A stretch of DNA of 16,059 nucleotides from Deltaproteobacteria bacterium (GTDB lineage Bacteria > Desulfobacterota > Desulfarculia > Adiutricales > JAGVGV01): the NCBI GenBank assembly GCA_015233515.1, contig JADFXS010000040.1, positions 1-16,059 on the forward strand. Reading direction: 5' to 3'. A program made the translations under genes and the position numbers. Each line of letters opens with the position of its first letter. Positions within the stretch are counted from its first letter, which is position 1. Positions 650 through 16,059 of the stretch are shown one piece after another. A model generated the notes under the pieces. That model did no database searches and was not told the origin of the DNA. It worked only from the letters and a program-made list of their open reading frames with translations.

Positions 650-670
650 ACGCGAACATCGGAGTATTAT

Positions 671-859: not shown

Positions 860-881
860 TATCAATCGGTAGCTGAAACAG

Positions 882-1493
882 ATGGACTGGAGCATTATTC
901 AACAATCCCGCGATTTGGCTAAGGGGCGATTTCCGCGAGCCTTGAAATTGCCCATTGTGCCGGACCAGTTCACGCTGATTTTAAAGTCTTTGAAGGCGGA
1001 TACTAAAGTTTTGGATATTGGAGCCAACGACCGGCGCCTGGAAAAGGTGATTTGGGAAAATTTCGGGGCCATCCATTATAAGAGCCTCGATGCCGACCGT
1101 CGACTGCCCCACGATTATTACGATTTCGAGGAGATAACCGAGAAATTCAACCTTATTGCCTGTCTGGACGTAGTGGAACATCTGGAGCCGGATGTGGTCT
1201 TTCAATTGCTGGCCAAGGCTTTTCATCGATTAGACGACCCCGGAACCATGTTTGTGTCCACCCCCAATGTGTTTCACCCGACGTGGCTGCGACGGGATTG
1301 CACCCATCGGACTTATTTTCATTACGATGAACTGGCCGGGATGCTTCTATCCGTCGGATTCAAGCAGATACAAGTTTTTCGCATCGGAAGACTGGACTGG
1401 AAAGGACGCCTCGCTTACCCTTTTTATAAACCTTTGTTGAAGATGCTGGATTTGGATTATGCCACCAGCATTATGATCAGGGCTGAAAAGTAA
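882..1493 (+). CDS. Class I SAM-dependent methyltransferase
   Basis: A 203-aa protein. Motif I is VLDIGAND (residues 43-50), an acidic residue follows in SLDADRR (about 68-74), and LDVVEHL (95-101) is the Methyltransf_11/23-type motif after strand 4. FVSTPNVFHP (124-133) resembles methyltransferases acting on polysaccharide or lipid-linked substrates. The family is Rossmann-fold O- or C-methyltransferase; the acceptor is unknown. It lies 22 bp after the Trm112-like gene and 6 bp before a GT2 gene, so it probably methylates a sugar or terminal group of the glycan built by this operon. The ribosome site before ATG 882 is weak (GAAACAG), suggesting coupling to the upstream gene. There is no transmembrane segment. 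Confidence 0.87.
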   Translation: MDWSIIQQSRDLAKGRFPRALKLPIVPDQFTLILKSLKADTKVLDIGANDRRLEKVIWENFGAIHYKSLDADRRLPHDYYDFEEITEKFNLIACLDVVEHLEPDVVFQLLAKAFHRLDDPGTMFVSTPNVFHPTWLRRDCTHRTYFHYDELAGMLLSVGFKQIQVFRIGRLDWKGRLAYPFYKPLLKMLDLDYATSIMIRAEK

Positions 1494-1499
1494 ACCGCC

Positions 1500-2261
1500 A
1501 TGGCCACTCTATCGGCAGTCATAATTACCTACAACGAAGAAACCAATATCGCTGCCTGCCTCACAAGCGTGGCCTGGGCGGATGAACTGATCGTGATGGA
1601 TTCCGGGAGCACCGACCGGACTCTGGATATATGCCGGGAATTCGGAGCCAAAGTTTTCCATCAACCCTGGCTCGGATATGCGGCGCAGAAGAATGCGGCC
1701 ATAGCTCTGGCCTCGCAAGATTGGATATTGAGTCTGGACGCCGACGAACGAGTCACCCCGGAACTGGCGGCCGCCATTCGCGCCGTGCTGTCGGGGCCGG
1801 AACCGGCTGTACTGGGTTACCAGGTCCGACGTCGAGTTTTTTTCCGGAATAAGTGGCTGCGCCATGGCGGGTTTTATCCGGAAAGACTCGTGCGCTTGAT
1901 CAAGCGCGGTTATGGGCGCTTTGGCGATCGAGCCGTTCATGAAGCTCTGGAGCTAAATGGCCGGACCGGGCGCCTGGAGTACGACCTGGAGCATTACACC
2001 TATCGGAGCGTGACCGATTATGTGGATCGAATGCAGCGCTACTCAACTCTGGCGGCTCAGGAATACCATAAATCCGGCCGGAAAACCGGTCCCTGCCGTA
2101 TGGCCGGCCGCTCGATTTTTACTTTTTTTCAAATGTATGTCCTGCGATTAGGCTTTCTGGACGGGTACGAAGGCTTTTTAATGGCCGGTCTTTATGCGAT
2201 CTACACCTTTGTCAAATACGCCAAACTCCGGGAAATCGATCTGGAGGACCGGGGTGATTGA
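1500..2261 (+). CDS. Glycosyltransferase family 2, WaaE/KdtX-like (LPS core)
   Basis: A 253-aa GT-A fold glycosyltransferase. The N-terminus has SAVIITYNEE, then VMDSGSTDRT (33-42), AQKN at about 62-65 and the metal/nucleotide-binding LSLDADERV (DxD Asp80/Asp82). The segments RLIKRGYGRFGDRAVHE and YRSVTDYVDRMQRYS in the second half match the WaaE/KdtX subgroup, whose characterised members add glucose to heptose I of the LPS inner core. Hydrophobic stretches near the C-terminus (about 205-240) suggest membrane association. The start ATG 1500 lies 6 bp after the methyltransferase stop. The TGA stop overlaps the start of the next gene by 8 bp, which implies translational coupling. Subgroup assignment is good; sugar specificity is inferred. 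Confidence 0.88.
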   Translation: MATLSAVIITYNEETNIAACLTSVAWADELIVMDSGSTDRTLDICREFGAKVFHQPWLGYAAQKNAAIALASQDWILSLDADERVTPELAAAIRAVLSGPEPAVLGYQVRRRVFFRNKWLRHGGFYPERLVRLIKRGYGRFGDRAVHEALELNGRTGRLEYDLEHYTYRSVTDYVDRMQRYSTLAAQEYHKSGRKTGPCRMAGRSIFTFFQMYVLRLGFLDGYEGFLMAGLYAIYTFVKYAKLREIDLEDRGD

Positions 2262-3300
2262 TTCTTTTGAAAATGTTTTAATTATCAAACTGAAACATCT
2301 AGGCGACGTTCTGACGACCACGCCCTTGATTTTTTCCATAAAACAAGCCTGGCCCGCGGCCAAGGTGAGTTATCTGATCAATCCGGGGGGGGAAGACCTG
2401 GTCAGATACCATCCGGACGTCTCCGAAGTCTTTGCCTGGCCCCGACATGAAGGATGGATCTCGCAGACCGAATTGATTTTTCGGATGCGCCGTCGCCGTT
2501 TTGATCTGGTTTTGGAACTCTCCGGGGGCGACCGAGGCGCGTTTTTGGCCTGGACTACCGGCGCTCGAGTGCGAGTGGGTTATGCACCCAGGACCAGGAG
2601 CAAAATAGATCGTCGCCGTCTTTTTACTCATCTGGTGACCACGGTGCCGGAAACCAAACATACGGTCGAATATCATCTGGATACCTTACGAGTTTTAGGG
2701 AAAGATCCCGGGATGCCCCTCATGAGTCTTTTTTGGCCGACCGAAGCCGAAGTTCGCGTCAATCAGCTTCTGAGCGCTTCGGGAGTGGACTCCGGCGCCG
2801 GGTACGTCGTTGTTCACCCGACCTCCCGTTGGATGTTCAAAGCTTGGCGGCCGGAAGCCAACGCCGCGGTTATTGATTATTTAGTCAAGGAATTAGGTTG
2901 GACGGTGGTCATCACCTCAGCTCCGGACCCTCAAGAACTAGAGTTTGTCGATCAGGTGATGGCCAGGACTATGGCTAAGCCCGTCAATCTGGCCGGCCGG
3001 CTTTCCCTGACGGAATTAGCCGCCTTGATTTCCGGCGCTAAATTGTTTTTCGGTGTGGACAGCCTCCCCATGCATATGGCGGCCGCGGTTCAGACAAAGG
3101 CTATAGCTCTATTCGGTCCTTCAGGCAACCACATGTGGGGGCCGTGGGGACCTCAACACAGAGTGATCGCCAAGGATTGGCCCTGTCGTCCCTGCGGTCA
3201 AGACGGCTGTAATCGGACCAAAGTCAGCAGGTGTCTTGTGGAAATCGAACCCGAAGAGGTATTCCCGGCGCTGGCCGAGGCTTTGGCGCTTGATTCCTAA
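2254..3300 (+). CDS. waaQ: Glycosyltransferase family 9, heptosyltransferase III-like
   Basis: I chose GTG 2254 because a GGAGG site ends seven bases upstream and MIDSFENVLIIKLKHLGDV is the conserved GT9 N-terminus. An ATG 60 bases further upstream would only add a non-conserved extension inside the preceding gene. The product has 348 residues. Motifs are KLKHLGDVLTTTP (12-24), HPTSRWMFKAW (188-198), GVDSLPMHMAAA (267-278), LFGPSGNHMWGPWG, and a C-terminal cysteine cluster CRPCGQDGC (311-319) plus Cys327. The HPTSRWMFK and CxPCGxDGC patterns are typical of the WaaQ type (heptosyltransferase III) rather than WaaC or WaaF. The role is transfer of an ADP-heptose-derived sugar to the inner core, in the cytoplasm. 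The gene overlaps its upstream neighbour by 8 bp. Confidence 0.88.
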   Translation: MIDSFENVLIIKLKHLGDVLTTTPLIFSIKQAWPAAKVSYLINPGGEDLVRYHPDVSEVFAWPRHEGWISQTELIFRMRRRRFDLVLELSGGDRGAFLAWTTGARVRVGYAPRTRSKIDRRRLFTHLVTTVPETKHTVEYHLDTLRVLGKDPGMPLMSLFWPTEAEVRVNQLLSASGVDSGAGYVVVHPTSRWMFKAWRPEANAAVIDYLVKELGWTVVITSAPDPQELEFVDQVMARTMAKPVNLAGRLSLTELAALISGAKLFFGVDSLPMHMAAAVQTKAIALFGPSGNHMWGPWGPQHRVIAKDWPCRPCGQDGCNRTKVSRCLVEIEPEEVFPALAEALALDS

Positions 3301-3310
3301 GGTGACCCCG

Positions 3311-4432
3311 ATGAAAATTGCTTTGATCCGGCAGAAATATACACAGTTCGGCGGGGCGGAACGATACGTCAATGAACTGGCCGGACGGCTGACAGTTTTG
3401 GGTCATCAGGTTCACGTCCTGGCCCGCGAGTGGGAAAGCCATGATCAAATCGACGTGGTTTTTCATCGTATTCACTGCGGCGGCCCGACCTTTATCCGCC
3501 TACCGGCTTTTGCCCGCGGGGTGGCGGAAATAGTCGCCAAGGAAAAGTTCGACTTGGTTCATAGTTTTGACCGGACTTATTCTCAGGATATTTTTCGAGC
3601 CGGAGACGGTTGCCATGTGGAGTATTTATCCCGGCGAGCACGAGTCGAGGGAAGGTGGCGTGGCTGGCTGGACCGAATCAACCCTCGTCATCGCGCGTTT
3701 TTGAGGCTTGAAGCCCGCCTCTTTGCCGACCCGAGGTTGAAGCTGGTTCTAGTCAACTCCAGGCAGGGCGCCGAGGAGATCATCAGGCATTATGGCTGGT
3801 CGCCGGACAAGATCAGCGTCCTTTACAACGGCCTGGATAAAGAGCGATTTCATCCCGGATTGCGTTCTCAATATAGAGATGAAATCCGACGGGAATTATC
3901 TCTGAATGAGGATGCACCCGTGGCATTGTTTGTCGGTTCCGGTTATGCCCGCAAAGGCCTTCGGGAACTGATCCGCTCCTTGTCTCACCTCCAGCTGACT
4001 CTTCTGGTCGCCGGTCGGGATAGACCGCAACCATATGCGAAACTGGCCTCGGACTTGAAGCTGACCGACCGAGTGCGATTCCTCGGTCCCCGCTCCGATA
4101 CGCCTAGGCTGTATGCCGCCGCCGACGTTTTTGTTTTGCCTAGTTGGTACGAGCCCTTTTCCAACGCCTGCCTGGAAGCCATGGCCAGTGGTCTACCGGT
4201 CGTAACCACTAAGGAAACCGGCGCCGCCGAAGTGATCGGGGAAGGAATCAACGGCTTTCTGGTGGATTTTCCGGTCGACTCCTATCAATTGGCGGAAATG
4301 GTCGAAAAGGCCTTGATTTTGGACCGTCAGCGTTTGTTGACGTTCAATAAAAATATCCTGGCGCCGTTTGATTGGGAATTGAACTTAGCTCAGACCATGG
4401 ACGCTTACAAGCATATCTTGGAGCGGGCATGA
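3311..4432 (+). CDS. Glycosyltransferase family 4, WaaG-like (LPS core)
   Basis: The start is ATG 3311, with AAGGTG just upstream that overlaps the previous stop. The in-frame ATG at 3236 lies inside the GT9 gene and precedes the conserved N-terminus, so I rejected it. The product has 373 residues. MKIALIRQKYTQFGGAERYV is the WaaG-like opening. LYNGLD (171-176) is the interdomain hinge, LFVGSGYARKGLREL (206-220) is the characteristic WaaG segment, and EPFSNACLE (Glu281, Glu289) is the EX7E motif of retaining GT4 enzymes. WaaG adds the first outer-core glucose to heptose II in enterobacteria; here the exact sugar is unknown. The TGA stop overlaps the next ATG (ATGA at 4429-4432). Confidence 0.88.
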   Translation: MKIALIRQKYTQFGGAERYVNELAGRLTVLGHQVHVLAREWESHDQIDVVFHRIHCGGPTFIRLPAFARGVAEIVAKEKFDLVHSFDRTYSQDIFRAGDGCHVEYLSRRARVEGRWRGWLDRINPRHRAFLRLEARLFADPRLKLVLVNSRQGAEEIIRHYGWSPDKISVLYNGLDKERFHPGLRSQYRDEIRRELSLNEDAPVALFVGSGYARKGLRELIRSLSHLQLTLLVAGRDRPQPYAKLASDLKLTDRVRFLGPRSDTPRLYAAADVFVLPSWYEPFSNACLEAMASGLPVVTTKETGAAEVIGEGINGFLVDFPVDSYQLAEMVEKALILDRQRLLTFNKNILAPFDWELNLAQTMDAYKHILERA

Positions 4433-5394
4433 TCACGGTGGTCATTCCAAACTATAACGGCGCAGAGGTGCTGACCGACTGCTTGGCCTCTTTGACCGGA
4501 CAAACTTTGCCGGTGCATGAAGTCATTCTGGTGGATAACGGATCAAGTGACGGCTCGGTAGCCATGGCCGAAGAAGTCTGGCCTGGTATCAGAATCATCC
4601 AGAACGGCCATAATCTCGGCTTTGCCTCGGCGGTCAATGCCGGTATCAAAGCCGCCGCCGGCCAATATGTGGCCTTGTTGAACAATGATGTCACCGTGGA
4701 ACGGGATTGGCTGGCGGAGATGAAGCTAGTTTTAGAGGCCGATCCTTTAACTTTTGCCGTGGGGCCTAAATTACTGTTAGACCCGGACCGGGAACGGATC
4801 AACGTCATTGGCATCAAACTTAAAAAGTCGCTGGAATCAGCCAGTATCGGCGCCGGACAGCTGGACCGGGGACAGTATGACCTGCCCGGTCAGGTCTTCG
4901 GGGTTTCCGCCGGCGCGGCTCTGTATCGACGGGAAATTTTTGATGAAGTCGGTTTTTTTGATGACGATTATTTTGCCTATCTGGAAGATGTGGACTTGAG
5001 CTTCCGGGCCAGACTAATGGGCTATCGTTTTCGCTACACGCCACGGTCACGAGCCTTTCACCGCCAAGGCTGGACTACCCGCAAGCGCATGCCCAGTTCC
5101 TTTGAAATCAGCCGAAATTCCCGGAATATCCTATACTGTCAGGTCACGAATGTCCCAGGGCGGGTTTGGCGGCGGCACAGGTTCAATATTCTGGGTCGCC
5201 ACTTGGAGCTTTTTTGGCGTTACACCATCCAGTATGTCTTGCGCGGCACATCCATACCTTATTTGAGGGGAAAAATGGATTTTATCCGGAATCTGAATCG
5301 GGTGTTGGCGAAACGCCGAATGGTCCAGGACGCCAAGCGCGTCCCGGACGAAGAGATACTTTTTTGGGTCGGTAGGGAAGTCGTCGTAGAGTAG
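4429..5394 (+). CDS. Glycosyltransferase family 2, rhamnosyltransferase-like
   Basis: The start is ATG 4429, in an ATGA overlap with the preceding stop. The conserved MITVVIPNYNG begins exactly there, whereas the longer frame from 4372 would add 19 non-conserved residues. The product has 321 residues. GT-A motifs are VDNGSSDGS (35-43), NLGFASAVNAGI (62-73), LLNNDV (83-88; NND is the DxD equivalent), FGVSAGAALYRR (157-168) and LEDVDLSFRARLMGYR (185-200). This set matches the RfbN/WcaA-type group often named rhamnosyltransferases. The C-terminal third is basic (many Arg/Lys) with amphipathic segments, consistent with peripheral attachment to the inner membrane. It is the last gene of the plus-strand operon. 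The donor sugar is not determinable. Confidence 0.88.
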   Translation: MITVVIPNYNGAEVLTDCLASLTGQTLPVHEVILVDNGSSDGSVAMAEEVWPGIRIIQNGHNLGFASAVNAGIKAAAGQYVALLNNDVTVERDWLAEMKLVLEADPLTFAVGPKLLLDPDRERINVIGIKLKKSLESASIGAGQLDRGQYDLPGQVFGVSAGAALYRREIFDEVGFFDDDYFAYLEDVDLSFRARLMGYRFRYTPRSRAFHRQGWTTRKRMPSSFEISRNSRNILYCQVTNVPGRVWRRHRFNILGRHLELFWRYTIQYVLRGTSIPYLRGKMDFIRNLNRVLAKRRMVQDAKRVPDEEILFWVGREVVVE

Positions 5395-5509: not shown

Positions 5510-6913
5510 CTAAAACCGGCCGAATTCTTTGTCATCCAGAGAGATAATCTCCTCCGGTCGGGCGATTTTATTTCCTTTGCGTAATTCCGGGAGCTTGGTC
5601 GGCCTGACATCTGCTTCTGAAATAACGTGAGTCTCGGCGGTAAGCTGTTTATATGATATTTGAGACTCCGGGTCTTGAAAATCGTGGCGCTCCGGAGAGC
5701 TTTGTTTTTTTAGCTTAAATTGCGCCACTATTTCCCGTAGATGCATGGATTGTCCGGACAGTTCCTCGGCGGCGGCCGCTGTCTGTTCCGCGTTGGCGGT
5801 ATTTTGGTTGGTGACTTGCTCAATCTGAGTAAGGCCTTGATTAATCTGGTATATTCCTTCAGCTTGTTCGTTGGAGGCCGCGTTGATCTCTCCAACCAAA
5901 TCCGCAACCTTGGTAATGCGGTCGACGATTTCTAGCAATGATTTCGATGTTTTGTCTACAATGTTCGCTCCGTTGACCGCTTTTTTCCCTGAATTTTCGA
6001 TCAAGATGACGGTATCTTCCGCGGCCTTGGCGCTGCGGCTGGCCAGATTTCGCACTTCCTGAGCGACCACGGCAAAACCTTTTCCGTGCTTGCCGGCTCT
6101 GGCCGCTTCAACCGCCGCATTCAAGGCCAACAAGTTGGTTTGAAAGGCGATATCGTTGATGGCTTTAATGATTTTCGAGATTTCCTTGCTGGAGTCATTG
6201 ATGTCTTTCATGGCTGAAGTCATTTCCGACATTTGTCCATTGCCAGCTTCCGCGGCCTGTTTAGCCGACAAAGCCAGTTGATTGGCTTGAGAAGCATTTT
6301 CCGCGTTGGACTTGGTTTGGGAAGCGATTTGGGTCATGGAGCTACTGATTTGGACAAGGGCCGCGGCTTGCTGGGAGGCGCCTTGGGACAGAGCTTGAGA
6401 AGCGTCGGACATCTGAGCCGCCCCTGAAACTGCCTGATCAACCGCTTCGTTTACTTGGCTCAACGCGTCATTAAGGCTAACGATCATCTTTTGTAACGCA
6501 TGACCAAGAACATCTTTTTCCGAAGCTAATACTACTTCCTGGTTCAAATCACCGTCGGCAATAGCCGTGGCCAATTTGGCCTTGACGTCCAGGGTATCGG
6601 CCATATCATCCATGGCATGGGCCAGAGCCCCAATTTCGTCGCCCATGGCCATTCTGAGCCGTTGGGAAAGGTCTCCGGCCTGAATGGCCGAAGCGAGTCT
6701 TACCCCGTCATTAATCGGCTTGGTGATGGATCTGGTGACGATTATCGCCGCGCCCAAGCCCATGACAACTCCGATTACCAAAGCAACAATGATGATTCCC
6801 TTGGACGTGTTTACAATATCAGAGACTTCCTGGCCGCTCCGGTCGGCTTTCTGCGCGGCGTTATTTTCCGCCTCTTGGGCCCGGGCAAGGTCGGTTTCGC
6901 CTAACTGCGACAT
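5510..6913 (-). CDS. Methyl-accepting chemotaxis protein, signalling half (separated from its sensor half by an in-frame TGA)
   Basis: 467 residues counted from ATG 6913. Residues 1-38 continue the periplasmic sensor domain and 39-60 are a transmembrane helix. A HAMP domain follows ([20 protein letters not shown]; about 61-113), then a second HAMP-like segment (about 110-160, [11 protein letters not shown]). The MCP signalling coiled coil has the conserved hairpin tip at about 250-290 ([20 protein letters not shown], then [15 protein letters not shown]). The tail ends in DDKEFGRF, a short acidic/aromatic ending like the tethers that recruit CheR or CheB. Family role: the signalling domain controls CheA through CheW. 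The same frame continues upstream through two codons (Pro, Gln) to a TGA at 6922-6920, so this is the distal half of one gene. Independent translation from ATG 6913 has only a poor ribosome site (GGAA about 14 bases upstream). Confidence 0.85.
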
Positions 6914-6919
6914 TTGCGG

Positions 6920-6922
6920 TCA
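6920..6922 (-). other. In-frame TGA interrupting the chemoreceptor
   Basis: The frame reads LPAEM, TGA, Pro, Gln, MSQLGETD without any frame change, so one codon separates the two receptor halves. The domain arrangement runs straight across it. TGA acts as an ordinary stop in several neighbours (for example the overlapping ends at 2261 and 4432), so code reassignment is unlikely. A nonsense mutation, a sequencing error, or genuine restart at ATG 6913 remain open. Confidence 0.9.
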
Positions 6923-8074
6923 CATTTCCGCGGGGAGTTTTTTGTCGTTCGCCACCCACAGCTTGGCGGCGGTCAAATATTCAACCGTGGCGCTGAGGCC
7001 TTTACTGATCATCTGGCGATCTTCACTGGCGTAGGCCAATTTCCTCAGGTCATCATAGAGCTTGAGAAGCTTTTGGAAATGGGTGTTGAGAGCAGTCCAA
7101 TAACTCTCATCTTTGTAGATGATATAAGCCTTTTCATTGAGTCTGGTGGAAAGAACCTCTTGAACGATTCCGGAGACGATGAATGCGGCTTCAAAGGCTT
7201 TATTTACTCTGGTTTCCTTGGCGGTCAGATATTCCTGGATGGTCTTACAGATGGTTTCACCCGTTTTTTCCATGGTTTCGACCAGAGCGGGCAATTTCTC
7301 CGAGCCGCCATCTTTTTTCTGCTCTTCAATCCAGGCTTTGGCGGCGGCGGCGTATTCCTGGGCGGCGGTGCGCGCTTCCGTGATTTGGTCGATTTCCAAT
7401 TGAGTCGGGCGCATTTTTTCCAGCTGATCGTAGCCCTCTAAAAGTTGATTCAGATTTTTCTCGATGGCTTCCCGATCTTTTTCCTGCTGGCTGACTATAT
7501 AAGCCTTGGTATATAACCTGAGTTCAAGCGCTTTGGCATTCAGGTTGTTAATAAGAGCCAAGGCGTTTTTACTTTCCAAATAATCCGCTTTTCTGGCCGT
7601 CAGCAGGGTATTGGCTTCGTTTTCCAGAAGAATGCTTTTGTCATCCATGCGTTTTTCGGCTTGCGTATTGCTCTTTGTCGTCGTTACGCCTTGGCGGGAC
7701 AGTTCACTATATTGGGCGGCGATACCTTTAACTTCTTTGGTTTTAGCAACTAATTGCGCATCGTTGTCGGCGGCGGCCTTTTTTTCCACTTTATCCAGTT
7801 TGGAAATCAGCTCGGCCAGTTTCTCCTGGGCCCTTTTGCTGATTTCTTCCTTGGAGGAAAGAAGATAATTTCTGTCCTCCAAGATGGTTTCGAAAGCCGA
7901 TCGTTCCACTCCGGTGGTATATTGAAGCGTCGGTAAAATATGCTGGCCCAGTAAGTCGACATTGGCGTTGACTTTTCCAAACATGATATATCCCGTGGCG
8001 CCCAGGGCCGCTAATACAGTAATGACCACGGAAAACCCAATGGTCAGCTTAAGAGACAGCTTCAAACGCTTCAT
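6920..8074 (-). CDS. Methyl-accepting chemotaxis protein, sensor half (HBM-like periplasmic domain, ends at premature TGA)
   Basis: I chose ATG 8074 because an AAGGAGGT site lies six bases upstream and MKRLKLSLKL opens a typical signal anchor. The ATG-like codon at 8113 would add 13 unlikely residues. 384 residues precede the TGA. Residues 1-9 are basic, about 10-32 are transmembrane helix 1, and the rest is an all-helical periplasmic domain resembling the helical bimodular (HBM) sensors of McpS-type receptors. LPTLQYTTGVERSAFETILE followed by DRNYLL is a typical opening. Three related modules can be seen, centred on DRNYLL (Tyr70), KAYIV (Tyr192) and KAYII (Tyr317). Alone, the product would be a membrane-anchored periplasmic domain with no signalling part. 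With the signalling half (5510-6913) it gives a normal receptor of about 854 codons. Known HBM ligands are small organic acids; the ligand here is unknown. Confidence 0.82.
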   Translation of the reverse strand: MKRLKLSLKLTIGFSVVITVLAALGATGYIMFGKVNANVDLLGQHILPTLQYTTGVERSAFETILEDRNYLLSSKEEISKRAQEKLAELISKLDKVEKKAAADNDAQLVAKTKEVKGIAAQYSELSRQGVTTTKSNTQAEKRMDDKSILLENEANTLLTARKADYLESKNALALINNLNAKALELRLYTKAYIVSQQEKDREAIEKNLNQLLEGYDQLEKMRPTQLEIDQITEARTAAQEYAAAAKAWIEEQKKDGGSEKLPALVETMEKTGETICKTIQEYLTAKETRVNKAFEAAFIVSGIVQEVLSTRLNEKAYIIYKDESYWTALNTHFQKLLKLYDDLRKLAYASEDRQMISKGLSATVEYLTAAKLWVANDKKLPAEM

Positions 8075-8228
8075 GAAGGGACCTCCTTGATGCGCGAACC
8101 ACATTAGGTGCAAAACAAGTTATTATGGTTTCCCCTTCAATTATACTTCCTCTGCCCAAACTCGCAAGGGCCGCTTCCGATGCCGACGTCGCATCATGGA
8201 GGGAGAATAGGGGACTAAGCCATCCCAA
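8075..8228. other. Gap between MttB-like gene and chemoreceptor
   Basis: The gap of about 150 bp holds the chemoreceptor ribosome site (AAGGAGGT) and a near-palindrome at 8179-8195 (GATG, one extra C, CGACGTCG, CATC). There is no clear T-tract terminator and no clear promoter. The minus-strand frame stays open for about 60 codons after the MttB-like stop but shows no family resemblance. Confidence 0.4.
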
Positions 8229-9488
8229 TCAGTCTTGGAAAGTATGTCCTAAATTTTTGAGCGTATGATCCAAGTTACGGAAATCGCTCCTCGTAACTCC
8301 TTCCGTGATGGCCTCCAAGCCTTCCTCGTCATAGACGGCCGGCGGTAGATCTTCAAAATCTTGATGCTCGTCACGGACTTGACGATACAATAAAATTTCT
8401 TCTTCCAGAGCCTCGAGAGAAAAATCATTCAGTTGAGCGGCAAATCCGAATAGATGCCGGACTTGATGGAAAGCGTATTTTTTTGCCAGGCGATAGGTAT
8501 TCATGGATTCTTGTCGAGCTTGATCGTCCAAGGTGGCCCGGCTGTGGCCGCAGGCGCTTTGACAGGTCGGCAGGCCTAGGTAAGTGTTCAATTCAGCAAG
8601 TAAAATATTGACCAGCGTATTTGATCGACTGCCGAATCTCAACGGCATGTCGCGTTGGCCGACGTCGGCGATAGTCGGCATGGCTCCGTTGATAATCTTT
8701 ATGCCGGGTTTTATCAGCTGAGCCAGAGTCAAGGCGAACAAAGCTTCGGCCTGGGCATAAGTGGCCAGAGAGGTCAAAGTGTAAGGCCCGGTGAGACCGG
8801 CGATGGGCATCGCGTTCATAAGGTGAGGCAAGCCGGATTGAACCACCCAGATAAAGGGATCGACCATTTCATCACTGATGGTCAAAAAGGTCGAAATAAG
8901 AGACAAGGCCGCCGCAACTTTATGTCCTTTATGATAATATTCCGCCAGATGAGTGATCGCTTCCTTGGTTCTGAGAGTAGGATTCACGAATTTATCATCC
9001 AGGGTTTTAACCATGATGTCGATAATTCCGCATTCGGTTTCAATGATCCGCGCCGTATCGCTTCGCCGGATACGGCTGCAAGGATTGACCGAGGAATAAA
9101 TAGCGGTCAGTTCATCATTTTTTTTGACCAACTCGGCCAACCGGCGGATATCATCCAGAGTCGCGGTGCGAGGTTGACCGCCTTCCACCAAATAAGCGGC
9201 CATGCCACCTGTTCCGCAACCCTTGGGCCAATAGTCATAACCGGCTTGAATCTGCTCGATGGCCATCCGCACGGTGTCGCGACTGACATAAAACCGGCCG
9301 GCATCCTTGAAATAGAGCAAAGCCGAGGCGCGGTCGGGATCGAGAGCCGCGATTATTTTTGCAGCTGTTTTTTCCGAGGCTTTCACTCCCAATGATTCAA
9401 TGATCATCAAGGCGTCTTCATGGATTTGTTCATATAAATCCTTGGATCCTAGACGGGCCTTTTTCGGTGAAGTATTGGGGAATGACAT
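8229..9488 (-). CDS. MttB-superfamily (trimethylamine methyltransferase-like) protein without pyrrolysine
   Basis: 419 residues. The start is ATG 9488, preceded by AAGGAG six bases upstream. Family features are IHEDALMIIESLGV (22-35), the central NAMPIAGLTGPYTLTS (225-240) with AQAEALFALTLAQLIKPG, INGAMPTIADV (266-276), and GLPTCQSACGHSRATLDDQA (305-324). That last stretch corresponds to the region where true trimethylamine methyltransferases carry pyrrolysine. No amber codon interrupts it, so this belongs to the non-Pyl branch. Characterised members of that branch demethylate quaternary amines such as glycine betaine, proline betaine or carnitine onto a corrinoid protein. The C-terminus stops soon after DHTLKNLGHTFQD, shorter than the 460-500 residues usual in the family. 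No corrinoid partner gene is in the window. It lies 230 bp after ATPase A of the importer, which suggests it processes the imported compound. Confidence 0.82.
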   Translation of the reverse strand: MSFPNTSPKKARLGSKDLYEQIHEDALMIIESLGVKASEKTAAKIIAALDPDRASALLYFKDAGRFYVSRDTVRMAIEQIQAGYDYWPKGCGTGGMAAYLVEGGQPRTATLDDIRRLAELVKKNDELTAIYSSVNPCSRIRRSDTARIIETECGIIDIMVKTLDDKFVNPTLRTKEAITHLAEYYHKGHKVAAALSLISTFLTISDEMVDPFIWVVQSGLPHLMNAMPIAGLTGPYTLTSLATYAQAEALFALTLAQLIKPGIKIINGAMPTIADVGQRDMPLRFGSRSNTLVNILLAELNTYLGLPTCQSACGHSRATLDDQARQESMNTYRLAKKYAFHQVRHLFGFAAQLNDFSLEALEEEILLYRQVRDEHQDFEDLPPAVYDEEGLEAITEGVTRSDFRNLDHTLKNLGHTFQD

Positions 9489-9718: not shown

Positions 9719-10495
9719 TTACAAAACCAGCACGGCGGACTCGGTAATTCTCTGCCGTAATTCCAAAAATCCCAAGTCAATATAATCTCTAGGGCGAGGC
9801 AGGTTGACTTCATAGGTCTTGCCCATCTGGCCCGGTAATTTACCTTCCAGGGTAACAATGCGGTCGGCCAGAAAAACAGCTTCATCGATATTGTTGGTCA
9901 CAAAAATCACGGTCCGCCGCTCACACTCCCAGATACGAATTATCTCTTGTTCCATGTAGATGCGGGTTTGGGCATCGAGTTGGCCGAAGGGCTCATCCAA
10001 AAGCATAACTTCCGGGTTGGTGGCATACGCCCTGGCTATTCCGACTCGTTGTTTCATGCCGCCGCTGAGCTGATGAGGATAACTATTTTCGAACCCTTGC
10101 AGCCCCACCAGGTTGATATATTTAGTCGCAATCTCCTGAGCCTCGGTCTTGGATTTTCCCTGGAGACGCGGTCCCATGGCGACATTGCCCATGACCGTCC
10201 GCCAAGGCAGAAGCATATAACTTTGAAAAACCAGCCCGCGGTCCGGACCAGGGCGCTCCACAAGTTTTCCATCCAGGTAAACTTCGCCCGTGGTTGGTGT
10301 TTCCAATCCGGCGATGATCCGCAACAAGGTGGTTTTACCGGATTGGCCGGGCCCGAGAATAACCAGGAATTCGTTTTTTCGGACATTGACGCTGATATGA
10401 TCAAGAACGTGAACTCGTTGATTCCCCTTTTGGATGAATTCCTTGCTCACATCCTTCCAAATTATCTTGTTTCCATTTTTTTCCGCTGTCGTCAT
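9719..10495 (-). CDS. ABC importer ATPase A (NitT/TauT/SsuB type), switch His replaced by Asn
   Basis: 258 residues from ATG 10495. Walker A is GPGQSGKTT (48-56), the Q-loop is Gln91 in FQSYMLLPW, the signature is LSGGMKQR (143-150), and Walker B is VMLLDEPF (163-170) with catalytic Glu168. The D-loop is GQLDAQ. The H-loop reads VTNNIDEA: position 201 is Asn where the family normally has His (VTHD). The family (SsuB/TauB/NrtD) energises uptake of sulfonates, taurine, nitrate or other small anions through the inner membrane. The gene starts 33 bp after permease A. Together with ATPase B it supplies two different nucleotide-binding subunits, matching two different permeases. The substrate cannot be read from this subunit. 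Confidence 0.92.
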   Translation of the reverse strand: MTTAEKNGNKIIWKDVSKEFIQKGNQRVHVLDHISVNVRKNEFLVILGPGQSGKTTLLRIIAGLETPTTGEVYLDGKLVERPGPDRGLVFQSYMLLPWRTVMGNVAMGPRLQGKSKTEAQEIATKYINLVGLQGFENSYPHQLSGGMKQRVGIARAYATNPEVMLLDEPFGQLDAQTRIYMEQEIIRIWECERRTVIFVTNNIDEAVFLADRIVTLEGKLPGQMGKTYEVNLPRPRDYIDLGFLELRQRITESAVLVL

Positions 10496-10528
10496 GATAA
10501 ACCTGCCTTGATTATATTAATCAGGATG

Positions 10529-11377
10529 TTAGAACCCGGCGATATCCCTCTTCCAGGGACACAGCTTCTTTTCGAGATACGACATGCCTAGGGAAGTCAG
10601 ATAGGCGATTACGGCGATCATGACCATGCCGCTCAATATCAAGGCCGGTTTGCTGATATTCATGCCAGTGATGATAAGGAATCCCAACCCTGATCTGGAA
10701 CTTACCAACTCAGCGGCCAGGACGCACATCCAAGCCATACTCAGGGATATTTGCAAGCCGGCGAAAATCGCCGGTAACGATCCCGGAAAACTGATAAGAA
10801 AAATTTCATCCCGTCGTCTGCCGCCCAGGACTCGAATAACGTCATAAAGTTCGGGGTCGACTAAACGGAGTCCGTTGTAAGCATTGAGAAGACAGGGAAC
10901 GAACGTCCCGATCATAATAATGAAGACCTTGGAAGTCTCGCCGATGCCCAGCCAAAGGATGGATATGGAAATCCAGGCGATAGGCGGCATGGGTTTTAGC
11001 AGGTCAAAAACCGGTTTGATGATCGCTCGAACGTAATCGTTCAGTGCCAGAAATACTCCCAAGGGAATGGCCACCAGGGAAGCGATGGACCAACCGATCA
11101 GCACCCGCTGGGTACTGGCCCACATATGTCCCCAAAGAGTGAGTCCGGCCAGTCGATTGTTAAACATATAGATAATCTGCTCGACGACTTCATGGGGACG
11201 AGCCAAGCTGTTTCCCAGCGTTTTATGGGCGGCCAAATAATCCCAGATCAGGAAAAATCCGACCACGGATACACAATTAAGGAATCTTTGATTTTCCAGT
11301 AAACCTTTCCAGGAACGAGCCGGAGCATCCTTGCGAACCCGGACAATAACTTCGTTGGCAATTTCCATAGTACTCAT
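10529..11377 (-). CDS. ABC importer permease A (SsuC/TauC type)
   Basis: 282 residues from ATG 11377. Its AGAAGG ribosome site overlaps the stop of permease B (4-bp gap). About six hydrophobic helices are visible after a hydrophilic N-terminus of about 30 residues, and LLKPMPPIAWISISILWLGIG is split by the usual proline-rich family segment. The EAA-loop that docks the ATPase is LYDVIRVLGGRRRDEIF followed by FPGSLPAIFAGLQ. It is the membrane half-channel of a NitT/TauT importer. It differs clearly from permease B, so the channel is probably a heterodimer. Permeases of this family more often form homodimers. Confidence 0.92.
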   Translation of the reverse strand: MSTMEIANEVIVRVRKDAPARSWKGLLENQRFLNCVSVVGFFLIWDYLAAHKTLGNSLARPHEVVEQIIYMFNNRLAGLTLWGHMWASTQRVLIGWSIASLVAIPLGVFLALNDYVRAIIKPVFDLLKPMPPIAWISISILWLGIGETSKVFIIMIGTFVPCLLNAYNGLRLVDPELYDVIRVLGGRRRDEIFLISFPGSLPAIFAGLQISLSMAWMCVLAAELVSSRSGLGFLIITGMNISKPALILSGMVMIAVIAYLTSLGMSYLEKKLCPWKRDIAGF

Positions 11378-11381
11378 ATTT

Positions 11382-12176
11382 TTACCTTCTGATACCTGCC
11401 AGGAGGCGTTTTTCCACTTGATCGATGATCACTCCAATAACCGCGCCGGTCAACCCAACCGAAACCATACCCAAAACCACCAGACCGGGCAGAGTGAGCT
11501 TGCGGCCCATGGTGATCAGGAAACCCAAACCGGCATTGGCGGCGATAAGTTCCGCGGCCACCAGAGTCGTCCAACAGGTTGCCAAGGCGATTTGGAGCGC
11601 TCCAAAGACCATCGGCAAGGCGGAAGGAATGCATATCTTCTTAAAAATGGTCCAGTCCGAGGCGCCGTATGTTCTGGCCATTTGAATCAAGACCGGTCGA
11701 GTCATCTTCACGCCGTAATAGGAATTGATGACACACGGAATGAAACCGGCCATGGTAATTATGAAAACTTTAGAGGAGAGTCCGATGCCAAACCAGTAGA
11801 TAGTCAATGATATCCAAGCGATGGATGGTATAGGCCGCAGCATTTCAAAGATAGGACTGGCCAGTCCTTCCACAGTTCTGAACCACCCCATGAACAAACC
11901 CAGAGGGATACCAATCAGAAGAGAAAGTAGATATCCGGTGAAAGCCTCTTGAATGCTAGTCCAGGCGTGAACGGTCCAAGTGAAACCATCAGGATTGGTT
12001 TCCGTTAATTTTACGAAAAACAGTTTGACCACGGCGGTCGGGGACTCGAGCATCGATCGGGGAACTATCCCGGACACGATTATCATTTCCCAAGCCAAAA
12101 AGAAAGCGGTTACACTGACGACCGGTAGAAACTTCATTAAGAAAGGGGTTTTTACTTTTATTTGTTCATAAGCCAT
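11382..12176 (-). CDS. ABC importer permease B (SsuC/TauC type)
   Basis: 264 residues from ATG 12176. A GAGGTG site lies about eight bases upstream, whereas the in-frame GTG at 12185 overlaps that site and is less likely. Five to six hydrophobic helices are visible, with MLRPIPSIAWISLTIYWFG marking the family and the EAA loop RTYGASDWTIFKKI followed by IPSALPMVFGALQ. The last residues overlap the ribosome site of permease A, so the two permeases are probably made in equal amounts. It pairs with permease A; which ATPase each contacts cannot be told from sequence alone. Confidence 0.92.
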   Translation of the reverse strand: MAYEQIKVKTPFLMKFLPVVSVTAFFLAWEMIIVSGIVPRSMLESPTAVVKLFFVKLTETNPDGFTWTVHAWTSIQEAFTGYLLSLLIGIPLGLFMGWFRTVEGLASPIFEMLRPIPSIAWISLTIYWFGIGLSSKVFIITMAGFIPCVINSYYGVKMTRPVLIQMARTYGASDWTIFKKICIPSALPMVFGALQIALATCWTTLVAAELIAANAGLGFLITMGRKLTLPGLVVLGMVSVGLTGAVIGVIIDQVEKRLLAGIRR

Positions 12177-12199
12177 GGGCGTCACACCTCGGAAGTTTT

Positions 12200-12227
12200 G
12201 CCCGACCCCTCCAAAGAGGAGCCGGGC
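12200..12227 (-). promoter_or_regulatory. Intercistronic hairpin between binding protein and permease B
   Basis: GCCCG (12200-12204) pairs with CGGGC (12223-12227). An inner CCTC/GAGG stem encloses a CAAA tetraloop, with two mismatches between the stems. No T tract follows on either strand, so it is not a classical terminator. It more likely protects the 3' end of the binding-protein message or lowers downstream expression, a known arrangement in binding-protein-dependent transporters. Confidence 0.45.
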
Positions 12228-12233
12228 CTTGGA

Positions 12234-13316
12234 TCATTCAGGAATAGGAAGCTTAACCATCTTCAAATATTTGTCGGTAACATAAGGAGTTTTTAAAACC
12301 TTTTCCTTGTCGGCCGGAGTGAATTTGCCCACTTGCGCGAAGAAAGTGGCCAGGTCGGCTTGCCATTTGTCAGCCTGGCTGTTGAAGGGAGATCCCTTCA
12401 TAGCATCCAACTGTTCCTGGTAGGTGTACTGCGGGCGCAAGGCCAGTTCTTTCTTGGCGAATTCATCAGACAAATCGTAACCAGCCCATTCCTTGTAAAA
12501 AGCCTGAAGATCGGGCACTAGTTTGTCACCCTGTTTGCGCATGAAGTGCTGGACCCGTATGTATACGCGCAAGAACTTCGCCACGATGTCCGGGTGTTCT
12601 TCACAGAAACTCTTCACCCCGATCAGGGTGGTCAGCAAAGGCCCACCGCAGGTCGACAAATCGCCGGCGATCTTCCAGCCTTTTTGCATGCCGATGTACT
12701 GCAAGGGAGCCCACAGGGCAACCATTTCGCCTTCACCGGATTCAAAAGCCGCCAGAGCCTGCGGATTGTCCATGTTTTTAACCACGACGTCTTTTTCCGT
12801 TAACCCGAACACGGCCAGATACTTGACCATGGTGTAATGAGAGGAGCTGACCAAGGTGGCTAAAAAGGTTTTACCTTTTACGGTTTCCGGACTGCCGTAA
12901 ACTTCGGGATACTTGGGGTTAAAGCCTTTGACCTTCATAATCGGGCTGTCGGGACGAACCAGGATGGCTTCGGTTCGGCTATCCTCGTACCCGATACCGA
13001 TCAAAGGCGTTTCATACCGTAAAGCGCCGATGATCTGACCCACACCGCCGGTCGAGCCCAAGACCCACGCTTTGGCCGGAATGGCTTCCATCTGCGCCGC
13101 GCCGGAATCAAAGAAGTTCATTTTAATATCCAAGCCTTCTTCTTTGTCCCAGCCCTTTTTCTTGGCATACCAAGGAATAAAAGCTTCAGTGGACGGCATC
13201 CAACAGGTTTCCAAAGGAAAGGGCTTGTCAGCCGCCAAAGCTCCAGAGGAAATCATCAAGAAAGACAGAACACCGACCATCACCATGAAAACTAATTTGG
13301 CACTTAAACGATTCAC
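12234..13316 (-). CDS. Periplasmic solute-binding protein (NMT1/TauA/SsuA type)
   Basis: 360 residues from GTG 13316, preceded by a strong AGGAGG seven bases upstream. The signal peptide is basic at residues 1-7 and hydrophobic at 8-22, with a cleavage motif GALA just before ADKPF (about residue 28). There is no lipobox Cys, so the mature protein should be soluble in the periplasm. The fold is that of aliphatic sulfonate, nitrate or taurine binding proteins: PWYAKKKGWDKEEGLDIKM near the N-terminus is typical, as are the central TVKGKTF (about residue 140) and EEHPDIVAKFLRVYI segments. Several Trp and Tyr residues in the first 60 positions could line the ligand site, but the ligand is not predictable. 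It delivers substrate to permeases A and B and is the only binding protein in the cassette. Confidence 0.92.
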   Translation of the reverse strand: MNRLSAKLVFMVMVGVLSFLMISSGALAADKPFPLETCWMPSTEAFIPWYAKKKGWDKEEGLDIKMNFFDSGAAQMEAIPAKAWVLGSTGGVGQIIGALRYETPLIGIGYEDSRTEAILVRPDSPIMKVKGFNPKYPEVYGSPETVKGKTFLATLVSSSHYTMVKYLAVFGLTEKDVVVKNMDNPQALAAFESGEGEMVALWAPLQYIGMQKGWKIAGDLSTCGGPLLTTLIGVKSFCEEHPDIVAKFLRVYIRVQHFMRKQGDKLVPDLQAFYKEWAGYDLSDEFAKKELALRPQYTYQEQLDAMKGSPFNSQADKWQADLATFFAQVGKFTPADKEKVLKTPYVTDKYLKMVKLPIPE

Positions 13317-13338
13317 TATACTACCTCCTGGGGTTTTT

Positions 13339-13355
13339 GATGACCAATGGTCATC
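13339..13355. promoter_or_regulatory. 17-bp palindrome, candidate operator before the binding-protein gene
   Basis: GATGACCA and TGGTCATC are perfect 8-bp arms around a single central A. The element ends 22 bp before the GTG start of the binding-protein gene. The size and symmetry fit a dimeric repressor or activator site; no regulator gene is in the window. Confidence 0.4.
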
Positions 13356-13372
13356 TAATACTTAACGCGCTT

Positions 13373-13408
13373 CAGGCCGTGAGAAAAAATTTCCCCGGCC
13401 TGTTTTTT
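13373..13408 (+). promoter_or_regulatory. Hairpin between ATPase B and binding-protein genes
   Basis: CAGGCCG (13373-13379) pairs with CGGCCTG (13396-13402), and TTTTTT follows at 13403-13408 on the plus strand. As drawn on the plus strand it looks like an intrinsic terminator, but no plus-strand gene feeds it. In the minus-strand message it would be a hairpin just after the ATPase B stop, which could mark a processing boundary. Confidence 0.4.
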
Positions 13409-13410
13409 CA

Positions 13411-14199
13411 TTACCACCACCGGATGAGCCCGGTCACATGCTTCCGGATTTCAACGAATTTCGGGTCGAGCGGATTTCGAGGGCGAGGCAGATCCACTAA
13501 AACTTCGGATTTGATGTGAGTCGGTTTGTTGCTAAGGACCAGAATTCGACTGCCAAGGTAAACCGCTTCTTCGATATTATGCGTTATAAAAAGAACGGTG
13601 CTTTTAAGAGTATCCCAGAGGTGAACCAACTCATCTTCCAAGTAATATCGAAGTTTGACGTCTAATTGCCCATACGGCTCATCCATCATCAATAAATCCG
13701 GTTCCACCGCGAAAGCTCGCGCCACGGCAATACGCTGCTCCATACTGGCGGAGACCTGATTGGGATAAAGAGTCCCACAACTGGACAATCCCACCAAGCC
13801 CATAATGTAATCCAATCGTTTTTCAATCCGGTCCGGCTCAAAAGCCTTGACTTCCATTCCGAAAGCGACATTATCCCGGACCGTTCGCCAGGGCAGGCAG
13901 GTCGGTTCTTGAAAAACGAAGGAAATGTTGTGTTTTTTGGGGTTGGCTTCCTCGCCGTCGATGAGGATATCACCGTAGGTTGCCGGGATCAATTTGGACA
14001 AGGTGTTGAGAAAAGTGGTTTTTCCGCATCCGGTTGGCCCGACGATGCAGAGGAACTCACCTTCATAAACATCGAACGACATATCATCTAAAACCAGCAA
14101 GTCGTCGAAGCTTTTGGTGAGATTTTTTACCGAAATCTTGACCCGTTTTTTTTGGGTTTCTTTTTCTTGAGGATCCACGGATTGAGTGTTATTTTTCAT
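13411..14199 (-). CDS. ABC importer ATPase B (NitT/TauT type), degenerate signature motif
   Basis: I chose ATG 14199 (AAAGGGA five to eight bases upstream); an in-frame GTG sits directly before it at 14202. Residue numbers below count from that GTG. Residues 1-20 are a charged, non-conserved leader. Walker A is GPTGCGKTT (55-63), the Q-loop is Gln98 in FQEPTCLPW, and Walker B is LLMMDEPY (170-177). The D-loop is GQLD and the switch His is present in ITHNIEEA (His208). The signature, normally LSGGMxQR, reads VSASMEQR (150-157), losing both glycines. It would supply the intact catalytic side for ATPase A's canonical signature while offering a poor signature in return. It lies 61 bp after the thioredoxin reductase stop and 94 bp before the binding-protein gene. 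Confidence 0.92.
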   Translation of the reverse strand: MKNNTQSVDPQEKETQKKRVKISVKNLTKSFDDLLVLDDMSFDVYEGEFLCIVGPTGCGKTTFLNTLSKLIPATYGDILIDGEEANPKKHNISFVFQEPTCLPWRTVRDNVAFGMEVKAFEPDRIEKRLDYIMGLVGLSSCGTLYPNQVSASMEQRIAVARAFAVEPDLLMMDEPYGQLDVKLRYYLEDELVHLWDTLKSTVLFITHNIEEAVYLGSRILVLSNKPTHIKSEVLVDLPRPRNPLDPKFVEIRKHVTGLIRWW

Positions 14200-14242
14200 C
14201 ACATCCCTTTGTTGCCGTTGACTCTGGCCAAAGACAGTCCGA

Positions 14243-14260: not shown

Positions 14261-15178
14261 TCAGCACTTCAGTTTTCTCAGATACTCGGCCGCCATCAAC
14301 GCCGCGATAGTCCCATCGTTCATGGCGGTGGTAATTTGCCGGTATTTTTTACGAATCACATCGCCGGCCGCGAAAACCCCCGGCAGGTTGGTTTCCATGT
14401 TTTCACTGGCCTGGATGTAACCCGTTTCATCGAGATTAATGATCCCCTGAAATATTTCCGTCTGAGGCTCTTGTCCCATGTAGACAAAAACACCATCGAC
14501 TTCTTTTTCGCATTCTTCGTTTTTTTCTGAATTATAGAGGATGGCGGCTTTGAGCTTGTTGTCGAGCTTGAGTTCCCGAACGCCGGTGGAAGTCAGAATT
14601 TCCACTTCGGGCAGGCATGAGAGTTGTTGCACCGCTTTTGCCGAGGCAAGCAGGCGGTCCAATTGTTCAACAAGAATGATGCGGTTGACTCCTAATGATT
14701 TCAGGTAGATCGATTCTTCAACTCCACTGTTGCCGCCACCCACGACCAGGACATTTTTCCCTTTGTACGCCGAGCCATCGCATATGGCGCAGTAATGGAT
14801 TTGATCGCAATCGATATCCAGCGGCAATTTTTTGGGTTTACGTCCAGTGGATAGAATAACGGCCGGTGCGGTGAAACGACCTTCATCCGTTTCAATCACC
14901 TTGGCGGCGGAATCCAGGGTCACTTCCAAAATTTCGACTACTTCCCTTATTTCAACTCCCAGGTTTTCGACTTGGTTTTTAACCTTTTCCATCAATTCCT
15001 GGCCGCTGATTTCACGATAGGAAGGGAAATTTTCCACATGATAAGTGGAATTAACCAAACCACCACAAACACTTTTTTCCAAGACCAGAGTCTTTAGGTT
15101 GGCCTTGGCGGCGTATATGGCCGCCGTCATCCCCGCCGGGCCGCCGCCAAGGATCATCAGGTCGTAAGCCAAATTCAT
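14261..15178 (-). CDS. trxB: Thioredoxin reductase-like flavoprotein with NADH-type cofactor loop
   Basis: 305 residues, the usual length, from ATG 15178. The FAD-binding motif is GGGPAG (11-16), the redox-active pair is CAICD (Cys130, Cys133), the second dinucleotide motif is GGGNSG (147-152), and the FAD-contacting segment is GVFAAGD (267-273). In NADPH-dependent TrxB the second fold is followed by HRRxxxR, which binds the 2'-phosphate. Here that region is ILVEQLDRLLAS, with Glu171 at the end of the strand and no Arg pair. This resembles NADH-using AhpF, so NADH or another donor is likely. Family role: it reduces the thioredoxin-like protein encoded 8 bp upstream. The gene precedes the importer cassette. 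Confidence 0.9.
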   Translation of the reverse strand: MNLAYDLMILGGGPAGMTAAIYAAKANLKTLVLEKSVCGGLVNSTYHVENFPSYREISGQELMEKVKNQVENLGVEIREVVEILEVTLDSAAKVIETDEGRFTAPAVILSTGRKPKKLPLDIDCDQIHYCAICDGSAYKGKNVLVVGGGNSGVEESIYLKSLGVNRIILVEQLDRLLASAKAVQQLSCLPEVEILTSTGVRELKLDNKLKAAILYNSEKNEECEKEVDGVFVYMGQEPQTEIFQGIINLDETGYIQASENMETNLPGVFAAGDVIRKKYRQITTAMNDGTIAALMAAEYLRKLKC

Positions 15179-15186
15179 TCGGACAC

Positions 15187-15504
15187 CTAACCTTCAGTAA
15201 TCATTCTTTCCAGATCGCGGTAAGTAATATCGCCGCTTTTTTGCGACAACTTTACGCCGTCCTTGAAAGTGATTACCGTGGGAACCCTTTCCACACCCAT
15301 GGCCTGGGTCGATTGCGGATGGGTTTCCCGATTTATTTGAAAATATTCGATCTCCTTGGTTGAAGCCGCCGACATAGCGGAAAACTTGGCAATAATCTTT
15401 TTCATGGCCTGGCAGAAGGGGCATTGATCTTTATAAAACAGCACTAAACTCAGGCCGGAAGCGATACTTTGTTCGAAGTTTTCGTCCGATATTTCAGTGA
15501 GCAT
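15187..15504 (-). CDS. Thioredoxin-like protein with CPFC active site
   Basis: 105 residues from ATG 15504, with GAGGAAG six bases upstream. The active site is CPFC (Cys28-Cys31) in FYKDQCPFCQAM, and the cis-proline loop is RVPTVITF (Pro75). Canonical thioredoxin has WCGPC; this has no Trp before the motif and a glutaredoxin-like dipeptide, so its redox potential probably differs. There is no signal peptide, so it is cytoplasmic. The next gene is its likely reductase. It may keep a thiol or metal/corrinoid enzyme reduced; the target is not evident. Confidence 0.88.
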   Translation of the reverse strand: MLTEISDENFEQSIASGLSLVLFYKDQCPFCQAMKKIIAKFSAMSAASTKEIEYFQINRETHPQSTQAMGVERVPTVITFKDGVKLSQKSGDITYRDLERMITEG

Positions 15505-15684: not shown

Positions 15685-16059
15685 TCAAATGTTATATATG
15701 GACTCCGCTTTGAGTTCCGTCATGAATTCACGGAGTTTATCGAACAGTTCCCGAGCCTGAACCGGATGTTTGTCGATCAGGTTGACAAGTTGGAAGGGAT
15801 CGTCATGACGGTTGTATAATCCGTCCATGGCCGGGACATCGGACAAGGCCCCCGGAACACAAGTCCACTGATTTTCCTGATGGGCCTTGAGACGATCATA
15901 AAAGGTTTTAGAATCTTGAATTCCTTCAGAAACTTCTCCTTCCTTGATGTCGAAGACTTCCAGCATGGCTTTTCCCCCCGCCTCGCTGTTTTCCAAGGCT
16001 TCGGGGTTGATCCAGTGAACGAAAGACCAATTTTCAGTATGAATGGACCAGGCCTGCTT
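15685..16059 (-). CDS. Sulfatase-family protein, C-terminal part (5' end outside window)
   Basis: The frame is open to the right edge, giving 124 residues; an internal TTG at 15996 is not the start. Visible features are HTENWSFVHW near the edge, like the TERWKYI segment of arylsulfatases, and DGLYNRHDDPFQLVNLIDKH (family ELYDLxxDPxExxNL pattern). An amphipathic helix ends the protein. The catalytic part, with the formylglycine-generating CxPxR motif, would lie outside the window, so activity and substrate cannot be judged. The stop is TGA at 15687-15685. It points the same way as the thioredoxin and transporter genes, but the 180-bp structured gap makes co-transcription uncertain. Confidence 0.75.
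   Translation of the reverse strand, partial: KQAWSIHTENWSFVHWINPEALENSEAGGKAMLEVFDIKEGEVSEGIQDSKTFYDRLKAHQENQWTCVPGALSDVPAMDGLYNRHDDPFQLVNLIDKHPVQARELFDKLREFMTELKAESIYNI

Follow-up and report, generated by a model that had tools for sequence, protein, structure and literature searches.

Complementary ATPases in a NitT/TauT-type importer suggest one canonical and one specialised ATP site

In ATP-binding cassette (ABC) transporters, each ATP site of the dimer combines the Walker A, Walker B, Q-loop and H-loop of one nucleotide-binding domain (NBD) with the signature motif of its partner (available text of PMC7756269). A 16,059-nucleotide stretch from a Deltaproteobacteria bacterium (contig JADFXS010000040.1, the window) encodes an importer cassette with two different ATPases, each altered at one of these motifs. 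ATPase A (9719-10495, minus strand, 258 amino acids) has the canonical signature LSGGMKQR and Asn201 at the H-loop (VTNNIDEA), and ATPase B (13411-14202, minus strand, 263 amino acids) has the signature VSASMEQR, with S151-A152-S153, and the canonical H-loop His208 (ITHNIEEA). These residues, picked out in a first-pass annotation of the window, are confirmed by translation and conserved in relatives; only the end of B changes, as position 14199 falls 3 bases before the first possible start codon and 14202 is used instead. We propose, with a probability of about 0.72, that A and B form an obligate heterodimer in a NitT/TauT-type importer, with one canonical site composed of the B core and the A signature, and one specialised site composed of the A core and the B signature that likely holds ATP with slow or no hydrolysis.

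Conservation and co-occurrence of the two ATPases

We compiled database lists of A and B relatives, each comprising the best 120 of about 8000 scored proteins and drawn up without genome context. In the B list, 119 of 120 proteins carry an S-x-S signature, the window's own included (118 scored by script and P0043 by eye); in one of the 119 only one glycine is altered (LSGS), and the remaining entry, P0002, is an A/B chimera with a B half that reads LSVS. Both LSGGMKQR and the H-loop Asn occur in 119/119 A proteins (P0121-P0239, among the matches listed and including the window's own), a count that leaves out P0002, which appears in this list as well. P0002 and P0031 are in-frame A/B chimeras with joints in conserved stretches, for which natural fusion, deletion and misassembly are all possible origins.

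Genome context came mostly from contigs scanned with B. The first scan, with a B alignment, returned 80 loci, of which 26 are B relatives, 55 to 79% identical, and 54 are NitT/TauT ATPases of general type (33 to 41%), and the full set, with further genomes added, comprises 265 loci and the window. Merging copies at least 99.5% identical reduced 77 B-type and 73 A-type NBDs to 74 and 72 distinct ones. The H-loop residue of the distinct A-type NBDs is Asn in 71/72, Ser in 1/72 (L130) and His in 0/72, and the Asn is otherwise fixed in A proteins down to 51% identity with the window's A. The Ser copy (L130, 10661-11446, plus strand) reads VTSN, and its paired B has an ISSS signature. The loci contain a further 80 distinct NBDs, of which 76 combine SGG with His, three have another signature with His and one is a fragment in L021; His is found in 79/80, the exception being this fragment, an A-type copy with a frameshift that lies where the contig ends. 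Conservation of the pattern across relatives rejects isolated mutation or sequencing error as its cause. The two deviations also fall together: the signature of one NBD departs from LSGG (S-x-S in B of clade I, to which the window belongs, and S-A-G in B′ of a second clade), and the core of the partner is altered in the same composite site (H-loop Asn, once Ser).

The other catalytic positions are retained. An alignment of 27 A and 21 B proteins shows no variation at Walker A Lys, Walker B Asp-Glu, Q-loop Gln or signature Ser, and Walker B DEP is kept in all 66 A and 66 B sequences tabulated, none of which has the replacement of Walker B Glu that is frequent, though not universal, in transporters with a degenerate site. 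This invariance suggests that the odd site has kept ATP binding and is not the result of decay. One clade I B protein (L123 / L099, genome G136) reads DEPYGQLT, with Thr replacing the D-loop Asp.

We defined a mate as an NBD of the other type on the same strand within 7 kb. An A-type mate, frameshifted in L021, is present for 69/74 distinct B-type NBDs (the 74 include five with S-A-G), and a B mate is present for 71/72 distinct A-type NBDs. The five mateless B-type NBDs (L004, L119, L131, L183, L184) all reach a contig end before the expected place of A, and the lone A (L244/L260, genome G071) lies at a contig end with the B of the same genome (L119) on a separate contig. When NBD pairs were formed mechanically, 73/77 were complementary, one of them with the frameshifted A, and the other four are neighbouring NBDs of unrelated transporters. 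The first-pass annotation had proposed joint conservation of the Asn and the VSAS-like signature as a check on its reading, and outside contig-end cuts the two are indeed conserved together. Its proposal of an obligate pair with one canonical and one non-canonical site is supported by co-occurrence in every cassette not cut by a contig end, and from this strict co-occurrence we infer the physical pairing of A and B.

In a reverse test on the same 297 genomes, the B query matched 12 genomes and the A query 11, with 10 in common, and copy numbers were equal (3 A and 3 B in G002, 2 A and 2 B in G028). The NBD matched in the A-only genome (G045) is canonical with His, and the B-only genomes are G040, which belongs to clade II, and G108, where B lies on a 4.4-kb contig. 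Gene order varies and the gene set is constant across 69 cassettes in stretches of at least 5 kb: substrate-binding protein (SBP), permeases P1 and P2, A and B follow in the order SBP-P1-P2-A-B in 33, B-SBP-P1-P2-A in 10 and B-P1-P2-A-SBP in 10, and the remainder are variants or cut. A and B distances correlate with r = 0.89 over 66 pairs, a value expected of co-inherited genes and not in itself proof of contact.

A second clade and the history of the asymmetry

Five cassettes (L112, L113, L177, L239, L240) form a related group, clade II, in which an A′ gene adjoins a B′ gene. The polarity is the same in 5/5 cassettes, with ISGG or LSGG and an H-loop Asn in A′ and LSAG or ISAG and His in B′, and among the matches listed for one A′ (P0240-P0358) the Asn is found in 119/119. 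L112, L113 and L240 have the order binding protein, one permease, A′, B′, and L177 has one permease, A′, B′, binding protein; the start of L239 is missing. Searching every open reading frame (ORF) of these loci with four permease sequences identified one permease per cassette. No second permease was found within these loci, the rest of each genome being outside the search, and eight neighbouring proteins (from L239, L240, L112 and L177) are non-permease by Pfam. The first-pass annotation had used the two permeases of the window as an argument for a heterotetramer, an argument that is not needed: clade II is asymmetric with one detected permease gene, so the asymmetry appears independent of two permeases, and two permeases as its cause or requirement are rejected.

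We reconstructed a 66-row tree with the signature and H-loop columns excluded. Rows were dereplicated by identity and then hand-thinned (A from 33 to 20, B from 29 to 18), and nine more (8 canonical, 1 unrelated S-A-G) were dropped, mostly for long branches. Support is 100/99 for the A clade, 100/97 for the B clade and 100/98 for B with B′, and a 100/99 branch separates A′, B′ and B from A and the canonical NBDs. The grouping of all four types (A, A′, B and B′) to the exclusion of canonical NBDs reaches 93/92, under the starred support level, and A′ is monophyletic in only 12% of bootstrap trees. A single Asn clade of A and A′ was rejected (log-likelihood 70.6 lower; approximately unbiased (AU) test p 9.6e-5), with the group defined after a quick tree had been viewed and the AU test sharing any long-branch pull of the model. 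The separate placement of A and A′ implies two changes at the H-loop: either Asn arose in each of them, or it arose a single time and B reverted to His. Because B′ branches beside B, the tree is consistent with stepwise loss of the signature glycines from SGG through SAG to SxS.

A broader reading, which we put at somewhat below even odds, is of an importer lineage with one firing and one holding ATP site, in which asymmetry would have arisen two or more times around a single B lineage: the signature glycines would have been lost stepwise in B and B′, and the H-loop His in each of the non-sister partners A and A′, the cassettes of one clade carrying two permease genes and those of the other a single one. 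If this is true, import would need about one ATP per cycle, and in clade II asymmetric ATPases would drive an otherwise symmetric membrane part.

A specialised ATP site weighed against alternatives

In the proposed mechanism, the B core (Walker A, Walker B, Q-loop and H-loop His) would form the hydrolytic site with the LSGG of A, and the A core with its H-loop Asn would form a specialised site with the S-x-S of B that binds ATP, holds the dimer and hydrolyses slowly or not at all, so that the transport cycle would be powered mainly by the B-core site. A homodimer of either ATPase would instead have both sites without the H-loop His (A2) or without a normal signature (B2). The first-pass annotation had called the A-core site doubly impaired. 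Both deviations do lie in this one composite site, and we infer reduced hydrolysis there; impairment is not established, as the other catalytic residues are kept and an H-loop Asn is tolerated in MRP1 (available text of PMC7756269).

Several points weigh against this proposal. Most loci were gathered by searching with B, which leaves the presence and type of A as the unbiased half of the co-occurrence, and the reverse test is limited to one phylum sample and a few clade II loci reached via A′. Clade I has no internal variation in which to follow co-variation, and its contrast is only with canonical NBDs and clade II, where B′ has the milder deviation of a single altered signature glycine (S-A-G). 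In the NBS2 site of MRP1, H-loop His to Asn or Gln substitutions retained wild-type-like transport, and the Glu is altered in many degenerate exporter sites (both from the part of PMC7756269 consulted). The catalytic Glu is, unlike in those exporters, present in both sites of the cassette, and both may still hydrolyse.

These last points favour the strongest alternative, an A-B heterodimer that hydrolyses at both sites, with Asn and S-x-S as tolerated tuning that orients or regulates the dimer. Conservation of Walker B Glu, Walker A Lys, Q-loop Gln and signature Ser in A and B, together with the MRP1 substitutions, agrees with it; we nevertheless consider it unlikely, since both signature glycines are substituted in nearly all clade I B proteins, 72/72 distinct A-type NBDs lack His (Asn in 71, Ser in one) and the two changes share one composite site in two clades. 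Two homodimeric transporters in one operon, A2 with one permease and B2 with the other, would account for the two permease genes of clade I and are very improbable: neither ATPase type is seen alone except at contig ends, both homodimers would have the defects described above, and the pairing of two ATPases with one detected permease gene in clade II makes it unlikely that each serves its own permease. Decay of one site released from selection is the least probable explanation of all, with one Ser for Asn (L130) and one LSGS protein in its favour, against an Asn otherwise fixed down to 51% identity with the window's A and other catalytic residues of the A core invariant in the 27 proteins aligned.

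NrtBCD and CmpBCD, cyanobacterial nitrate and bicarbonate importers (8wm7, 9u9z), are likewise of NitT/TauT type with two different NBD genes, and CmpC/CmpD and NrtC/NrtD are the solved NBDs nearest ATPase A by sequence. CmpC, CmpD and NrtD differ from A and B in that both of their motifs are canonical (LSGG or ISGG, and THD) in the alignments displayed, which do not include NrtC. The C subunit of NrtBCD and CmpBCD also bears an extra domain (chain lengths 665-690 in the structure matches). TM287/288 and BmrCD are grouped with TAP, MRP and CFTR as asymmetric exporters, a type that differs from the cassette in its exporter fold and its often replaced Walker B Glu, whereas the cassette keeps the Glu and has an H-loop Asn. 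In human TAP, MRP and CFTR proteins, as in the cassette, deviations over both NBDs meet in one composite site and the signature of the partner deviates (PMC7756269, in part). In Pdr5, activity was lost when the four degenerate-site motifs were all restored (PMC7756269, in part). DppBCDF, a heterodimeric type I peptide importer, has two different NBDs and two different permeases like the clade I cassette, but the Glu residues of DppD and DppF are both considered catalytic and two-ATP hydrolysis is proposed (available text of PMC12136057).

The first-pass annotation had presented the complementary pattern as established in asymmetric exporters and unusual in a NitT/TauT importer. We found no degenerate-site case in NitT/TauT transporters in the open-licence literature searched, which leaves out most subscription papers, and the review of degenerate sites deals, in its available text, with exporters (PMC7756269). 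However, RbsA and NupO, fused-NBD importers of B. subtilis, each have one degenerate site by sequence and share with the cassette the combination of import and a single degenerate site; they differ in being fused polypeptides of a different family and type II importers, in which the second Walker A Lys is lost and, in NupO, Walker B residues as well (available text of PMC11466899). As read from sequence, the conserved, complementary, two-clade asymmetry in importers is stronger than first stated, and the principle itself is already known.

Cassette composition, neighbourhood and distribution

The minus strand of the window reads B, binding protein, P1, P2, A and methyltransferase. Both ATPases match PF00005 (A, E 9.1e-29; B, E 3.7e-27), with Walker A GPGQSGKT and Walker B LLDEP in A and GPTGCGKT and MMDEP in B. 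The best NCBIfam model is TIGR01184 (ntrCD) for A, at 227 bits against a curated cut-off of 291.8, and NF040729 (SaoA) for B, at 207 bits against 360, a score that does not support SaoA membership; both NBDs are nearest to ntrCD/TauB/SaoA models, as in NitT/TauT importers, and because the scores are under the curated cut-offs we assign neither to a named subfamily. The NMT1/SsuA-like substrate-binding protein (12234-13316, minus strand) passes the PF09084 cut-off of 20.5 at 31.2 bits (E 2.7e-7), a match of NitT/TauT kind, has a TIGR01728 match under cut-off (E 4.9e-21), and its top solved match is the taurine-binding protein 6ssy (E 2e-11). Permeases P1 (11382-12185, minus strand; PF00528, E 1.1e-19) and P2 (10529-11377, minus strand; PF00528, E 6.9e-21) are BPD_transp_1 permeases of the TauC/SsuC/NtrB kind found in NitT/TauT importers, with TauC and SaoP as top NCBIfam models, all under equivalog cut-offs. 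By these family matches, the cassette is a binding-protein-dependent importer of NitT/TauT type.

On the same strand, 230 bases beyond ATPase A, lies an MttB-superfamily methyltransferase gene (8229-9488, minus strand; PF06253, E 3.8e-19). No homologue of this protein was found in the 265 loci at E 1e-3, many of these loci being short; the methyltransferase is possibly a pathway neighbour of the window cassette outside the conserved set, and it hints at a methylated compound as the substrate of the window's importer. In L239 and L240, the clade II genes adjoin URO-D-type and corrinoid-binding genes, as the clade I cassette of the window adjoins the MttB-superfamily gene. We scanned 50 hand-picked flanking proteins of clade I. 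Eight loci (L008, L015, L017, L019, L025, L179, L181, L221) have sulfatases beside the cassette or at most two genes away, seven (L001, L002, L004, L005, L006, L116, L228) have aldehyde dehydrogenase or class III aminotransferase, and L126 and L011 encode a thiamine-diphosphate enzyme and a transketolase half, respectively; other flanking proteins are mixed and include regulators, histidine kinases, EutA, CoA-transferase and lactate-racemase-like proteins. This neighbourhood fits organosulfur substrates for part of clade I. A partial ORF in the window (15685-16059) was considered as a sulfatase end and dropped, with no Pfam match at E 0.1.

Immediately upstream of ATPase B on the same strand are thioredoxin reductase-like and thioredoxin (CPFC) genes (14261-15504, minus strand), and weak thioredoxin reductase-like matches (46-53 bits) lie close to the cassette in L121, L122, L230, L232 and L233. 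A chemoreceptor (5510-8113, minus strand) is encoded as two same-frame ORFs, sensor (6920-8113) and HAMP plus MCP (5510-6913), interrupted by one in-frame TGA at 6920-6922, for which a pseudogene, sequencing error and recoding are all possible. On the opposite strand, 20-5394 holds a cluster of glycosyltransferase-like and related genes, as judged from translations.

The distribution of the cassettes is sparse but broad. Named loci come from Clostridia, Desulfobacteria, Desulfovibrionia, Spirochaetia and one Planctomycetota metagenome-assembled genome (MAG), and two further loci ('Deltaproteobacteria bacterium') are listed under Myxococcota, a doubtful placement. A B match was found in 12/297, 5/299 and 10/120 genomes of three samples; every count includes the seed genome, and the first and last also include a clade II genome each. 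Of 199 genomes from the phylum of the Planctomycetota MAG, 5 were matched by the A query, with Asn in the seed only and the other four canonical. One genome (G003; L003, L183, L184, L113) combines a clade II cassette with three B genes of clade I.

The purpose of degenerate ATP sites in many ABC transporters is an open question that has been explored mainly in exporters. With unfused ATPases, each site of this importer could be mutated through its own gene in a natural, conserved gene set, and clade II, with its less altered signature and single detected permease gene, offers a comparison. The motif rule would also allow A and B to be annotated as an obligate pair, a distinction that the matched NCBIfam models do not make.

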